Assembly (NCBI GenBank): GCA_025454095.1
Contig: JALOPC010000040.1
Coordinates: 1 to 10,240, forward strand
From: Syntrophales bacterium
GTDB lineage: Bacteria > Desulfobacterota > Syntrophia > Syntrophales > UBA2192
Reading direction: 5' to 3'
DNA: 10,240 bases
A program made the position numbers and the translations under genes. The notes under the pieces were generated by a model. It made no database searches. It saw nothing but the letters and a program-made list of their open reading frames with translations, and was not told the origin of the DNA. The first letter of the stretch is position 1. Every line of letters begins with the position of its first letter. This document shows positions 903-10,045 of this stretch, piece after piece.

Positions 903-1805
903 ATGAAGAGGCGTGACTTTCTGAAGTGGACGGCCGTTTCCTCGGCGGGGCTGGCGCTGCCCTGCGGCCTGCCCGCTCTGGGCCGCATCGCGCAGGCCGC
1001 ACAGGGGCCCGATCTCGTCGTGGCCAAGGGGGCCTCGACGCCGCAGACCGTGCGTGCGGCCCTGGACGCCCTGGGCGGGATGAAGCGCTTCGTCGCGAAG
1101 GGCGACGTCGTGATCCTGAAGCCCAACATCGGGTGGGACCGCAACCCGCAGTACGCCGCGACCACCAACCCCGACGTCGTCGGCGCCCTGTCGAAGCTCT
1201 GCTACGAGGCCGGGGCGAAGAAGGTGCGCGTCTTCGACAACACGGTGAACGACGCGCGGCGCTGCTACAGGCAGAGCGGGATCGCCGATGCGGCAGCCGC
1301 CGCCGGGGCCGAGATGGTCCACATGGACAGCCGCAAGTACCGGGACGTCAGGCTCAACGGGACGGCCCTGAAGTCCTGGCCCCTGTACGGCGAGATCTTC
1401 GAGGCGGACAAGGTGATCAACGTCCCCATCGCCAAGACCCACAGCCTCTCGAAGCTCACCCTGGGCATGAAAAACTGGATGGGCGTCATGGGGGGCGTGC
1501 GGTTTCGCGTCCACCAGCGCCTCGACGAGAGCCTCGTCGATCTCATCCGGGTCATCAAGCCGACGCTCACCGTGCTCGACGCCGTCCGGATCCTGACGGC
1601 CAACGGACCCACCGGAGGCGACCTCGGCGACGTGAAACGCCTCGACACCGTCGTCGCGGGAACGGACCAGGTGGCCGTCGACGCCTACGGGGCCACCCTG
1701 TTCGGGATGAAGGGGAGCGATCTCGAGCACGTCAGACTCGCCGCGAAGGCGGGCCTCGGGGTCATGGACCTTTCGAAACTCCAGATCAGGAGGATCGGTG
1801 TCTGA
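903..1805 (+). CDS. Tat-exported DUF362 domain protein
   Basis: A 300-residue protein beginning MKRRDFLKWT, a twin-arginine motif (R3-R4-D-F-L-K) followed by a hydrophobic stretch to about residue 34, so it should be folded in the cytoplasm and exported by Tat. Residues about 36-300 match the DUF362 family: VVILKPNIGW near 69-78, IAKTHSLSKLTLGMKNWMG near 177-194, and a C-terminal VAVDAYGATLFG near 257-268. No ferredoxin CxxCxxCxxxC motif is present, unlike the DUF362 protein at 4831-5871. The start is supported by GAGGTG at 893-898, four bases before the ATG. Its stop overlaps the start of the polyferredoxin gene by 8 bases, so the two are translationally coupled and probably work together in a membrane-periplasm redox complex. 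The biochemical activity of DUF362 is not established; the link to iron-sulfur electron transfer is inferred from context. Confidence 0.88.
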   Translation: MKRRDFLKWTAVSSAGLALPCGLPALGRIAQAAQGPDLVVAKGASTPQTVRAALDALGGMKRFVAKGDVVILKPNIGWDRNPQYAATTNPDVVGALSKLCYEAGAKKVRVFDNTVNDARRCYRQSGIADAAAAAGAEMVHMDSRKYRDVRLNGTALKSWPLYGEIFEADKVINVPIAKTHSLSKLTLGMKNWMGVMGGVRFRVHQRLDESLVDLIRVIKPTLTVLDAVRILTANGPTGGDLGDVKRLDTVVAGTDQVAVDAYGATLFGMKGSDLEHVRLAAKAGLGVMDLSKLQIRRIGV

Positions 1806-3381
1806 GCTGACGTTGACGCGCGCGAGACGCATCGTCCAGGGCCTGTTTCTCGCCCTGTTCCTGTTTCTCTTCATCCAGACGGAGTCGAAGGGGACCGACG
1901 AACTGGGCTGGCCCGTCAAGCTCTTTCTCGACTTCGACCCGCTGATCTTCCTGACCACCTTTCTCTCCTCCCACCGCGTGGAGGGGCTCTTCTGGCTGTC
2001 GCTCATCCTCGCGGGGCTCACCGTCGTGCTGGGGCGGGTCTTCTGCGGCTGGGTATGCCCCCTGGGCACGCTCAACAACCTTGCGGGAAGCCTCCGGAGG
2101 AAACGGCCCAAGCCCCCCGGCCCCGGATGGTTCCGGGTCAAGTATTACATCCTCGCCGGCCTTCTCGCCTCGTCGCTCTTCGGCGTGCAGCTGGCCGGGG
2201 TGCTGGACCCCATTTCGCTCACCATTCGTTCCTTCTCGCTGTCCCTCTACCCGGCGGCGAGCTATGCGATCACGTCCCTCTTCGACGCGATCTACCGGCT
2301 CAACCTCCCCCTCGTCACCCCCGCCTCGGAGGCCGTCTACGGCGTGCTGAAAAAGACGGTCCTTCCCTTCCAGCAGCCCTGGTTTGCGCAGGGGACCTTC
2401 ATCGGCCTGCTCTTCCTCGGCGTCCTGGCGCTCAACCTCGTGCAGCGGCGTTTCTGGTGCCGGTTCCTCTGCCCGCTGGGGGCGCTGCTGGGGCTGCTGT
2501 CGCGGCACTCCGTCCTGCGCCGCAGCGTGAGCGAGGAGTGCGATGCCTGCGGGGCCTGCGCCGGGGTGTGCCAGGCCGACGCCGTGCCCGCCGGCAAAGA
2601 CGAGTGGAGGGCCTCGGAGTGCCTCGTGTGCAACAACTGCGACGATGTGTGTCCGAAGAACGCCGTGAGCTTCGGCCTGATGAAGGGGCGCCCCCGGGGG
2701 GGGCTCGACCTGGCGAGAAGAAACGTGATGGCCTCCGTGTTCGCAGGGGCCTTCGCCGTGCCGCTGCTTCGCATCTCTCCGCTTGCCCGGCCGCGGATGT
2801 CGGACGCGAAGATCATCCGGCCGCCCGGCTCGCTCGGGGAAGCGGCCTTTCTCCAGAGCTGCGTGCGCTGCGGCGAGTGCATGAAGGTGTGCATCACGGG
2901 GGGTCTGCAGCCGACCCTGCTGGAGGCCGGCCTGGAGGGGCTCTGGACGCCGGTGCTCGTGCCGCGGATCGGGTACTGCGAGTTCGGCTGCACCCTCTGC
3001 GGCCAGGTCTGCCCCACGGGGGCCATCCGCAAGCTGCCCCTGGAGGCAAAACAGCAGGTGCGGCTGGGGCACGCCGCCATCGACAAGGGCCGCTGCCTGC
3101 CGTTTGCCCACGCCACCCCCTGCATCGTCTGCGAGGAGACCTGCCCGACGCCGAAAAAGGCGATCTGGCTCGAGGAGGTGGCCGTGAAGGACCGCGAGGG
3201 CCGGTCGATCCGCCTGCAGCAGCCCCACGTGGACCTCACGACGTGCATCGGGTGCGGGGCCTGCGAGAAGCACTGTCCCGTCGTCGGCCAGCCCGCGATC
3301 GCCGTCACGAGCGCCGGCGAGTCGCGCACGGAGGAGCATCAGCTTCTCCTGCGGGCGCCGGCCGGGACGCCCTGCGCGTAG
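1798..3381 (+). CDS. NapH-like membrane polyferredoxin fused to NapG/MauM-type ferredoxin
   Basis: A 527-residue protein starting with GTG at 1798; AGGAGG at 1788-1793 sits four bases upstream. The N-terminal half is NapH-like: membrane segments near residues 11-27, 62-80, 116-136 and 199-216, two CxxxCP motifs (C83GWVCP, C221RFLCP), then two [4Fe-4S] motifs (C248-C251-C254-C258 and C275-C278-C281-C285). The C-terminal half resembles NapG/MauM: it opens with RR and a hydrophobic stretch (307-325), like an internal export or anchor signal, followed by cysteine groups at C355-C358-C361-C365, C394-C398-C401-C405, C433-C442-C445-C449 and C483-C486-C489-C493. In the Nap system NapH and NapG are separate proteins passing quinol electrons to the periplasm; here one polypeptide appears to hold both. 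No nap, mau or other catalytic subunit is in the window, so the terminal acceptor is unknown. It pairs with the Tat-DUF362 protein by gene overlap. Confidence 0.85.
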   Translation: MSELTLTRARRIVQGLFLALFLFLFIQTESKGTDELGWPVKLFLDFDPLIFLTTFLSSHRVEGLFWLSLILAGLTVVLGRVFCGWVCPLGTLNNLAGSLRRKRPKPPGPGWFRVKYYILAGLLASSLFGVQLAGVLDPISLTIRSFSLSLYPAASYAITSLFDAIYRLNLPLVTPASEAVYGVLKKTVLPFQQPWFAQGTFIGLLFLGVLALNLVQRRFWCRFLCPLGALLGLLSRHSVLRRSVSEECDACGACAGVCQADAVPAGKDEWRASECLVCNNCDDVCPKNAVSFGLMKGRPRGGLDLARRNVMASVFAGAFAVPLLRISPLARPRMSDAKIIRPPGSLGEAAFLQSCVRCGECMKVCITGGLQPTLLEAGLEGLWTPVLVPRIGYCEFGCTLCGQVCPTGAIRKLPLEAKQQVRLGHAAIDKGRCLPFAHATPCIVCEETCPTPKKAIWLEEVAVKDREGRSIRLQQPHVDLTTCIGCGACEKHCPVVGQPAIAVTSAGESRTEEHQLLLRAPAGTPCA

Positions 3382-4830: not shown

Positions 4831-5871
4831 ATGGCCGCTGCCGTCTATTTTTCCGATAAATTCAGCGAAGATACAATCGGACGCCTCTTCGAGAGAGCCC
4901 TGGCCGACACGGCCGGCAGGATCGGGACCGAGGATCGCGTCGCCGTCAAGCTGCACTTCGGCGAGGAGGGGAATACCCGTTTCGTCTCCCCGGCGAACCT
5001 GCGGCCCCTTCTGGCCTGCCTGGCAAAACACAATGCCAACCATTTCCTGACCGACGCCAATGCCCTGTACCGGGGCAGGCGCCACAACGCGACGGATCAC
5101 CTGGAGATTGCCCGGAAACACGGGTTCGGTGCCCTCGGGGTGCCCGTTCTCATTGCCGACGGCGAGCGGGGCGAGGAGGAGGCGGAGATCCCGGTTGCGG
5201 GGAAGATTTTCCGCAAAGTCCGCATCGCCCGCCGCATCGCCGAGGCCCGGGCCCTCGTCGTCGTGTCCCATTTCAAGGGGCACATCCTCTTCGGTTTCGG
5301 CGGGGCCGTCAAGAACCTGGGGATGGGGTGCGGATCGCGGGCGGGGAAGCTCGAGATGCATTCCACCCTCAAGCCCTCCGTGGGCGAGGGCTGCACCCTC
5401 TGCGGCAAGTGCGTCGACGTCTGCCCGGCCGACGCGATTCTCCTGGGGGAGGACAGGGCCGTCATCGACCCCGATCAGTGCGAGGGGTGTGCGAGCTGCA
5501 TCGCCGCCTGCGAGTTCGATGCCGTCGAAATCCCCTGGATGGCCCTGGCCGCCAGTGCCGTCATGGAGCGGACGGCCGAGTACGCCCTGGGGGCCGTCAA
5601 CGGCAAGCCCTGCATCTGCGTGACCTTCGTCAACAACATCGCAAAGGACTGCGACTGCATGGCCGACAGCGAGCTGATCGGGCGCGACGTGGGGATCGTC
5701 GCTTCCGTCGACCCCGTGGCCTGCGAGCAGGCCGCCTTCGACCTCGTGAGGGCGCAGCACGGCAGCGTCGATATCTTCAAGCGGGCGACCCGGGTCGACG
5801 GGACCCACATCCTCGGCTACGCCGAGTCCATCGGGCTGGGCACGCGGAACTACGGCCTGGTCCGGCTGTGA
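4831..5871 (+). CDS. DUF362 protein with internal 2x[4Fe-4S] ferredoxin domain
   Basis: A 346-residue cytoplasmic protein with no signal peptide. The N-terminal DUF362 half contains VAVKLHFGEEGN (38-49), VVVSHFKGHILFGFGGAVKN (143-162) and a GMGCGSRAGK segment. A ferredoxin domain follows, with C188-C191-C194-C198 and C217-C220-C223-C227, the classic spacing for two [4Fe-4S] clusters. DUF362 sequence then resumes, with further cysteines (C261, C263, C274, C276) and VDPVACEQAAFDLV (293-306). The length and order match the common 'DUF362 domain-containing 4Fe-4S binding protein' of anaerobes, whose reaction is not known. The ATG is preceded by AGGGGG (4818-4823) seven bases upstream and by a promoter at 4772-4800. 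It differs from the DUF362 protein at 903-1805, which is exported and lacks cluster ligands. A redox role in the cytoplasm is inferred. Confidence 0.9.
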   Translation: MAAAVYFSDKFSEDTIGRLFERALADTAGRIGTEDRVAVKLHFGEEGNTRFVSPANLRPLLACLAKHNANHFLTDANALYRGRRHNATDHLEIARKHGFGALGVPVLIADGERGEEEAEIPVAGKIFRKVRIARRIAEARALVVVSHFKGHILFGFGGAVKNLGMGCGSRAGKLEMHSTLKPSVGEGCTLCGKCVDVCPADAILLGEDRAVIDPDQCEGCASCIAACEFDAVEIPWMALAASAVMERTAEYALGAVNGKPCICVTFVNNIAKDCDCMADSELIGRDVGIVASVDPVACEQAAFDLVRAQHGSVDIFKRATRVDGTHILGYAESIGLGTRNYGLVRL

Positions 5872-7895: not shown

Positions 7896-8103
7896 GTCGT
7901 AGACCTCCTTCCTTGAAGGCCTACCTTACCACAGCCGTCCGCGGTTTTGCATCGGGTTTGTTTCCGCTTACCGCTTCTTTTCGACGAGGGTCCTCACCCG
8001 CCTGGCGGGGATGGATTCGCGGATCCGCGGCGCTCCGCGGTGAAGGTCCGGAGTTTCTTGTGTTGGCCCCCCTCCTGTGTTAAGAAGGCCGACGGAGGAA
8101 TCG

Positions 8104-9264
8104 ATGGCCGTTCCCGGAAATTTCGTATCGCTCACCCATATCGCCATGACGCGGGTCCTCCCCGCGGTGCATCGGTTCCTCGAAGGCTGGGAACAGAAGG
8201 CAAACAAGATCCCCGACCCCGAGCTGCGGCGCCAGGCCCTCATGAGCATCGCGAACAAGACCTTCCACTGCGAAGGCGGCGGGATCTACACCCTGCTTGC
8301 GGGGGAGCATGCCCGGGAGACGATGCGCTTCATCGTTGCCTACCAGACAATCAGCGATTACCTCGACAATCTCTGCGACCGGGGGACGTCGCGCGACCCG
8401 GAGGATTTCCGGACCCTGCACACGGCCCTGGCCGACGCCCTGACCCCCGGGGCGGAGCCAGGCGACTACTACCGCTGCCGGCCCGAAAAGGACGACGGGG
8501 GCTACCTGCCGGCCCTCGTCCGGACCTGCCAGAACGTCCTGAAGGTTCACCCCGCCTATCGGCGGATCGCCCCCCTGCTCCAGGAGCTTGCAGGCTATTA
8601 CCGCGAGCTGCAGGTCCACAAGCACGTGGCGGCCGCCGAGGTCCAGCCGCGCCTCGAGGCCTGGTATGCCGGCAACCGGGAGAAGTTCCCCGACATCCGG
8701 TGGCAGGAGTTCTGCGCCGCCGCCGGCTCCACGCTGGGGGTATTCTCGCTCGTCTCGCAGAGCTGGGCGGACGATCTTGCCGAGGAGGACCTGCGCAGGG
8801 TCAAGGAGGCCTATTTCCCCTGGGTCCAGGGGCTCCACATCCTGCTCGACTATTGCGTGGACCGGCAGGAGGATCACCTCGCCGGGGAGCTGAACTTCTG
8901 CGATCACTACCGGGACGAAGGCGAGATGGAAGAGCGCTTCATCCGCTTCTACAGGGTGTCCGACCGCGCCCTCCGCGAGCTGCCCGACCCCGGGTTTCAG
9001 CGCATGCTGCTGAAGGGCGTGCTCGCCGTCTACCTCTCCGACGTGAAGATGAGCCGCCGGGACAGAAGCGCAAAGAGCCTCGGCAGGCGGCTCCTCCGCG
9101 AAGGGGGCCCGCTGGCCTGGTTCTTCTTCGCAAACTGCTGGGTTTATCGCCGGGGTGAAAAACGCCCATATGCTGCGTTTCCCTCATGCCTCGTCCCTGC
9201 GGCGTACGTTCCAGTACGCCTCAGTCCTCAGCATTTCGGGGGCCTTGCATCTGGACATTTTTGA
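8104..9264 (+). CDS. DUF2600 family, YtpB-like large-terpene synthase
   Basis: A 386-residue all-helical protein. It matches DUF2600 (PF10776), the family of Bacillus YtpB, a class IB synthase that makes tetraprenyl-beta-curcumene from a C35 prenyl diphosphate. Visible signs are the KTFHCEGGGIYTLLAG segment (52-67), the Asp-rich QTISDYLDNLCDRG (81-94; D85, D88, D92) and the second acidic motif HILLDYCVDRQEDHLAGELNF (245-265; D249, D253, D257, E262), placed as metal-diphosphate ligands would be. The start at ATG 8104 is favoured by GGAGG (8094-8098); an ATG at 8077 is in frame but lacks a site. Residues from about 351 to the end are encoded by an inverted-repeat element (9154-9266), which also supplies the TGA stop; the native protein probably ended soon after WVYRRG (346-351). 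The exact product cannot be predicted, and no prenyl diphosphate synthase or cyclase is nearby. Confidence 0.85.
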   Translation: MAVPGNFVSLTHIAMTRVLPAVHRFLEGWEQKANKIPDPELRRQALMSIANKTFHCEGGGIYTLLAGEHARETMRFIVAYQTISDYLDNLCDRGTSRDPEDFRTLHTALADALTPGAEPGDYYRCRPEKDDGGYLPALVRTCQNVLKVHPAYRRIAPLLQELAGYYRELQVHKHVAAAEVQPRLEAWYAGNREKFPDIRWQEFCAAAGSTLGVFSLVSQSWADDLAEEDLRRVKEAYFPWVQGLHILLDYCVDRQEDHLAGELNFCDHYRDEGEMEERFIRFYRVSDRALRELPDPGFQRMLLKGVLAVYLSDVKMSRRDRSAKSLGRRLLREGGPLAWFFFANCWVYRRGEKRPYAAFPSCLVPAAYVPVRLSPQHFGGLASGHF

Positions 9265-9452: not shown

Positions 9453-9517
9453 GTCGACGATCTTGCAGTGACGGCTCACGCCGGTCCGCGGGGTCAATTC
9501 TGCAAAGGAGGATTTTC

Positions 9518-10045
9518 ATGAAGCTCAAGGTCGGGCAGAAAGCCCCCAATTTCACCCTGCCGAGCCACCTCGACAGGAAGGTGACCCTTTCGAAGTGCCT
9601 CGGAAAGGGCCCTGTCGTCATCGCGTTCTTTCCCCTGGCTTGGACACCGGTCTGAACGAATCAGCTTCCCTCGTACGAGGCCGAAATGGCCAAGTTCGGG
9701 AAGCTCAATGCCCAGGTCCTGGGCATCAGCGTCGACCACATCCCCTGCCTGAAGGCTTGGGCGGAGAGCCTCGGCGGGATCTCCTTTCCGCTGCTGAGCG
9801 ATTTTTGCCCCCTGGCCGCCGTCGCGAAGAAATACGGCGTGAAGAGAAAGGAGGGGTTCTCGGAGCGGGCGATCTTCGTTCTCGACAAGTTCGGGATCAT
9901 CCGCTACATCGACATCCACGACATCGGCGACCGGCCCAAGAACAAGGTCCTGTTCGCCGAGATCAAGAGGGTGATCGGGCTCGAGAGCGAGCTGGAGAAG
10001 GTGGCCGCCAAGCGCATACCCGGGGCGAAGAAGACCCGCAAGTAA
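9518..10045 (+). CDS. Selenocysteine-containing peroxiredoxin (AhpC/TSA family)
   Basis: Starts at ATG 9518 with AAAGGAGG (9504-9511) six bases upstream; an ORF open from 9155 in this frame is a chance extension through the repeat element. The 175-residue product is a thioredoxin-fold peroxiredoxin. An in-frame TGA (9653-9655) is codon 46, precisely where the family has its peroxidatic cysteine: P39-LAW-T43-PV-U46-T fits PxxxTxxC. The same frame continues as TNQLPSYEAEMAKF, VLGISVDH (68-74), KAWAESLGG, PLLSDF and FSERAIFVLDK (with conserved R117) to a TAA at 10043-10045. Reading TGA as selenocysteine gives a normal full-length enzyme; reading it as stop gives a 45-residue fragment. A SECIS-like hairpin follows at 9663-9705. 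C77 and C97 are candidate resolving residues. The role is reduction of H2O2 or organic peroxides by a thiol reductant in the cytoplasm. SelA/B/C/D genes must be elsewhere. An ordinary pipeline would split this gene at the TGA. Confidence 0.92.
9653..9655 (+). other. In-frame TGA, predicted selenocysteine codon (U46)
   Basis: TGA stands in place of the catalytic cysteine codon in TPV-x-TNQ. Conserved peroxiredoxin sequence flanks it in the same frame on both sides, and a stem-loop with bacterial SECIS spacing follows. Confidence 0.88.
9663..9705 (+). promoter_or_regulatory. SECIS-like stem-loop downstream of the Sec codon
   Basis: AGCTTCCC (9663-9670) pairs perfectly with GGGAAGCT (9698-9705). 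After an internal loop (8 by 6 bases), GGCC (9679-9682) pairs with GGCC (9688-9691) around the loop GAAAT. The apical loop begins 27 bases after the TGA and starts with G, within the usual limits for bacterial SECIS elements bound by SelB. It lies inside the coding sequence, as in other bacteria. The fold was made by eye, with no energy calculation. Confidence 0.6.

Follow-up and report, generated by a model that had tools for sequence, protein, structure and literature searches.

The stretch of DNA considered here (termed the window) comprises positions 1 to 10,240 of contig JALOPC010000040.1 from a genome assembly (GCA_025454095.1) of an uncultured Syntrophales bacterium, and the gene in question lies on its forward strand, at 9518–10045. 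With high confidence, this gene can be read as encoding an AhpE-like, peroxide-removing peroxiredoxin in which selenocysteine (Sec) is the predicted peroxidatic residue, U46. The placement of Sec at this position is supported by the conservation of an in-frame TGA among relatives, by the presence of Sec-decoding machinery in the genome, and by a covarying hairpin of the Sec insertion sequence (SECIS) type beyond the codon. As such, the gene is a new example of the established family of Sec-containing peroxiredoxins, and gives an uncultured lineage one more selenoprotein with good support.

The gene, its reading frame and its fold

When read through its TGA, the frame at 9518–10045 specifies 175 residues and ends in TAA; an AGGAGG ribosome-binding site (9506–9511, forward strand) stands six bases before its ATG. 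The frame contains a single TGA (9653–9655), which falls at codon 46, the peroxidatic position (x) of the sequence PLAWTPVxT and hence of the motif PxxxTxxU. The read-through protein matches the AhpC-TSA domain, PF00578, over residues 5–131 with an E value of 9.5e-35 and a score of 119.7 bits, where the cut-off is 26, and its alignment with AhpE, which has Cys at this site, continues across the TGA position. An AlphaFold2 (AF2) model of the protein has a mean predicted local distance difference test score (pLDDT) of 90.1, and AhpE is its nearest neighbour among solved structures by both fold and sequence. A preliminary description, made from the letters of the window alone, had placed the TGA in the stead of the peroxidatic Cys, and the frame, the PF00578 match and the alignment through the site all bear this out; C77, C97 and the basic C-terminal tail are likewise present as it described them. 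Compared with AhpE, a 1-Cys peroxiredoxin, the window protein differs in its presumed Sec, in the additional Cys77, in a C-terminal helix (residues 142–165) and in that tail.

The same active site bears on what the protein does. It is an unlikely but conceivable alternative that this is a selenoprotein of peroxiredoxin fold that serves mainly in thiol oxidoreduction or redox sensing and not in the bulk removal of peroxide, as might be suggested by the glutaredoxin-like domain fused to six relatives in the Chloroflexota and by neighbouring genes that indicate no substrate; against it, all 31 aligned rows keep the peroxiredoxin active-site residues P39, T43 and R117. A role in peroxide defence, in what is presumably an anaerobic bacterium, is the likely one.

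Conservation of the TGA and its treatment in databases

The preliminary description had proposed a search for homologues with Cys or Sec at position 46, and a scan of named genomes indeed returned both forms, with TGA at the same codon in 14 of 17 loci and Cys in the other three, which are remote peroxiredoxins of 33–35 % identity. Four of the 14 TGA loci belong to Syntrophobacterales, Syntrophaceae or other deltaproteobacteria near the window, six to Chloroflexota, one to Pyrinomonadaceae and three to Anaeromyxobacter or Anaeromyxobacter-like bacteria. Within the order, the TGA form occurs in at least seven of 155 genomes, its own included, the six others being 77–92 % identical; the class-level sample consists of the same 155 genomes. 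Among the matches listed, six of the seven genomes of the genus carry it (again counting its own), as does the sole other genome of the family, and one TGA-form genome of the order (G091) is an assembly of approximately 3.5 Mb in five contigs. In a sample of 395 genomes of the phylum, searched at E 1e-49, eight matched and four of these had a TGA (the window's own genome, G090, G474 and G170), which in G474 and G170 was located at the active site. Several further candidates for Sec at the site were discarded: G107 has Cys there, its TGA being the residue after SDF; the stops of G128 lie past the domain; and loci on G091:C1, G026:C25 and G043:C21 all have Cys. Among viral contigs, 15 matches to the pattern included no relative.

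A TGA within a frame, in a group whose sister genomes hold related peroxiredoxins in the Cys form, might also be the mark of a decayed gene (a nonsense mutation) or of a miscalled TGC or TGT. That 14 of 17 relatives share the TGA, as do at least seven of the order's 155 genomes, makes a sequencing error very improbable; the identical codon recurs in independent assemblies from several phyla, the whole protein is 77–93 % identical inside the family, and the hairpin signal described below is present on average in the TGA genes and absent from the Cys genes. The conserved TGA thus rules out error or a pseudogene for practical purposes, and hardly any credence is left to this explanation.

Protein databases present the family differently. 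Among the best 120 of 6280 entries found, 48 are short forms that begin without exception at Met57, downstream of the TGA, and lack the active site; the equivalent in the window is the short open reading frame at 9686–10045 (forward strand). The others have, at the site, Trp (33 entries), Cys (38 entries, 32 by pattern and six by eye) or Arg (one entry). The expectation in the preliminary description that automated callers would misannotate the gene was largely right, and both the AhpE-like subfamily and its glutaredoxin-fused relatives are often incomplete or wrong in these databases. The Trp entries raise the question of whether TGA is decoded here as Trp, or as some residue other than Sec. 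They (33 among P0002–P0119, their source DNA being unseen) are probably TGA translated with genetic code 4, a gene caller set to that code being the simplest source of the printed Trp. Moreover, TGA terminates seven of the 11 window frames checked, which rules out a general reassignment; the genome encodes Sec machinery; and the peroxidatic residue of a peroxiredoxin has to be a thiol or a selenol. Decoding as Trp is, accordingly, very improbable.

Presumed decoding of the TGA as selenocysteine

A genome with the genes selA, selB, selC and selD was what the preliminary description asked for by way of corroboration, and the whole set was found: SelA, SelB and SelD all score above curated cut-offs in the window's own genome (2.2 Mb, 86 % complete), which also contains a tRNA-Sec with anticodon tca. 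Two more RF01852 matches above the cut-off in this genome are a tRNA-Ser (L005) and a contig-edge match that ARAGORN did not confirm (L004). In the genomes behind loci L018–L031, SelA and SelB each exceed the cut-off in 13 of 14; those that fall short are partial or split. The SelD frame of the own genome (L017, 1501–2424) has an in-frame TGA of its own, in GAGxACK, and is itself a selenoprotein candidate.

The SECIS-type hairpin lies 3' of the TGA, at 9663–9705 on the forward strand, with a minimum free energy (MFE) of −21.8 kcal/mol for 9656–9705. Its apical part (9679–9691, forward strand) consists of a GGCC stem, a GAAAU loop (9683–9687) and a second GGCC, the distance from TGA to loop being 27 nt. 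According to the portions available of a review of the Sec-peroxiredoxin family (PMC13188914), bacterial SECIS elements (bSECIS) have a loop of 3–9 nt, an upper stem of 4–16 bp, a UGA-to-loop distance of 16–37 nt and an MFE of −7.5 or below, with a G at loop position 1 or 2 that is mostly followed by G or U. The window hairpin is inside all of these limits (5 nt loop, GGCC/GGCC, 27 nt, −21.8 kcal/mol for the 50 nt), and the loop G is present in the window and, in total, in 14 of 17 TGA genes. For folding comparisons, the 51 bases past the codon of each gene were set against 500 recodings, in which synonymous codons were redrawn from that gene itself; the locus pairs L018/L036, L019/L037, L020/L039 and L021/L040, whose contigs agree in length, were taken as identical, and each pair was counted once in the hairpin work. 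The mean z was −2.28 for 17 TGA genes (range −0.97 to −4.09) versus −0.36 for 24 Cys genes (range −2.67 to 1.15). When 16 of these 17 TGA stretches are aligned, 10 consensus pairs emerge, four of which show changes on both sides; 90.0 % of cells pair versus 80.1 % after shuffling, and covariation was 0.329 versus 0.139, neither value being reached in any of 500 shuffles. Both measures drop when the partner is slid by one to three columns.

Several observations weigh against Sec decoding through this hairpin. The window hairpin, with a z of −2.01 and 16 of 500 synonymous recodings folding equally well, is only moderately special when taken alone, and plain shuffles of 9650–9700 match its fold in 32 of 200 cases (z −1.16). 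Two close relatives are weaker (96 of 500 recodings as good for L035, and 75 of 500 for L021), and the fold of the Cys gene L050 is unusually good (none of 500). Two of five pair measures, namely both-sided changes (58 of 500) and further pair types (110 of 500), do not stand out clearly from the shuffles. A slid version of the alignment equals the true one in the number of pairs with both-sided changes. The loop G of the window precedes A, unlike the usual G or U, and three of the 17 TGA genes, all from Chloroflexota, have no loop G. Rfam had no match in the window at its gathering score. With regard to the machinery, no SelA was found in G089, a genus-mate that carries the TGA gene (88 % complete), and no SelB above the cut-off in G474 (76 % complete). 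The loops without G, which fall outside the bSECIS rule, are AAUCU in L023 and L024 and UUACU in L026, directly past the TGA. The one Rfam match around the gene (E 2.4) is on the opposite strand. Given both the machinery and the hairpin, SelB carrying Sec-tRNA(UCA) would bind the hairpin past the UGA, and Sec would be inserted in place of termination.

Catalysis, electron donor and family relationships

With the PxxxT motif and R117 of peroxiredoxins conserved, the selenolate of U46 would be expected to attack H2O2 or organic hydroperoxides and be converted to a selenenic acid. How the oxidized enzyme is recycled is less sure: U46 may form a selenenylsulfide with C77, to be reduced by a thioredoxin-type protein, or an external thiol may reduce the oxidized U46 directly. 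Cysteines in helices act as resolving residues in some other peroxiredoxins, and C77 (codon 9746–9748, forward strand) lies inside a helix predicted in the AF2 model (residues 75–84). Of the 16 TGA loci inspected, 12 have Cys at this position, the exceptions being L028–L031 (the minus-strand locus L038, not read that far, is outside the 16). Among 121 protein rows, Cys stands there in 100 (the query, 98 by pattern and P0045 by eye), the rest having Ser (eight), Thr (four, P0098 by eye) or Val (nine). C97 (codon 9806–9808, forward strand) is Cys in only three of the 16 loci (L001, L018 and L035) and seven of the 121 rows, query included. Both residues had been put forward as potentially resolving; C77, though not universal, could be such a partner of U46, whereas the poor conservation of C97 makes that residue an unlikely one.

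The reductant of AhpE is mycoredoxin, a glutaredoxin homologue, according to the part available of PMC4360819, and six Chloroflexota relatives of the window protein (L022–L027) carry a glutaredoxin-like domain; because of these two facts, a glutaredoxin-type donor would be natural for the subfamily. A search for PF00462, which was positive in 13 of 14 controls, found no match in the window's own genome, nor was there a counterpart there of the fused domain of L022, in a search that had no positive control. Since this genome is 86 % complete, such absence is not proof. As a first guess, thioredoxin may be the reductant of the window enzyme. The six fusions share 57–63 % identity, the TGA and C77 with the window protein but differ from it in having the glutaredoxin-like domain, which was assigned by eye in these loci and is supported by Pfam in their database relatives. 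Cys versions of the fusions are also present in the database. In literature of partial coverage, seen as titles and abstract openings, no report of Sec in peroxiredoxin–glutaredoxin fusions or in Anaerolineae was recognized, which is not to deny that one exists.

The Sec-peroxiredoxin family was reportedly first described in Eubacterium acidaminophilum, the name PrxU being that of NCBIfam. The window protein scores 55.6 bits against the PrxU model (NF040737; cut-off 270) and 36.1 bits against Prx-SUH (NF045827; cut-off 298), and is under the cut-off of all 12 NCBIfam models listed. That selenoperoxiredoxins are known in anaerobes, as the preliminary description stated, is borne out by the part available of PMC1794560, which lists TxxU Sec-peroxiredoxins for Syntrophus aciditrophicus, Syntrophobacter fumaroxidans and Anaeromyxobacter dehalogenans. 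The window protein is like that TxxU family in its PF00578 domain, in having TGA where PxxxTxxU has its peroxidatic residue, and in a deltaproteobacterial, presumably anaerobic host. It differs in scoring far under the PrxU cut-off and in standing on an AhpE-like branch, to which the listed proteins may also belong.

In a quick tree of 100 rows, in which Trp rows were counted as Sec and 51 of 97 inner branches are open, the window clade (nine rows, support 97) lies among fusion proteins and apart from the 11 Cys rows of the order (support 100). In a careful tree of 99 rows, from which the long-branched L002 was left out, a constraint that put the window clade and those Cys rows together was not rejected (approximately unbiased (AU) test, p-AU 0.352). 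With that result and 51 of 97 branches open, a transfer into the window lineage is not established. Changes between Sec and Cys number approximately 10 in the quick tree if the Trp rows are Sec, only one of them being forced by starred branches. A rather doubtful scenario would have the Sec subfamily arise as a fusion in Chloroflexota and pass to a Syntrophaceae-like lineage, with loss of the glutaredoxin, a C77–U46 selenenylsulfide pair and repeated Sec/Cys swaps. The occurrence of close Sec and Cys members in one subfamily constitutes a natural test of the benefit of selenium to a peroxiredoxin.

The own genome also contains a Cys paralogue (L002, 592–1035) that is 40 % identical and adjoins an upstream frame that by eye looks ferritin-type. 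In the window, the selenoperoxiredoxin gene is preceded by a gene for a DUF2600 protein (8077–9264) and followed, from 10121 onward, by one that by eye resembles 2-dehydropantoate 2-reductase; in the same genus, L038 has a like gene order by eye and then an isochorismatase-like gene. Farther off (903–3381 and 4831–5871) are two DUF362 proteins, one with a twin-arginine translocation (TAT) signal and beside a protein rich in 4Fe–4S motifs, and the other with 4Fe–4S motifs of its own.
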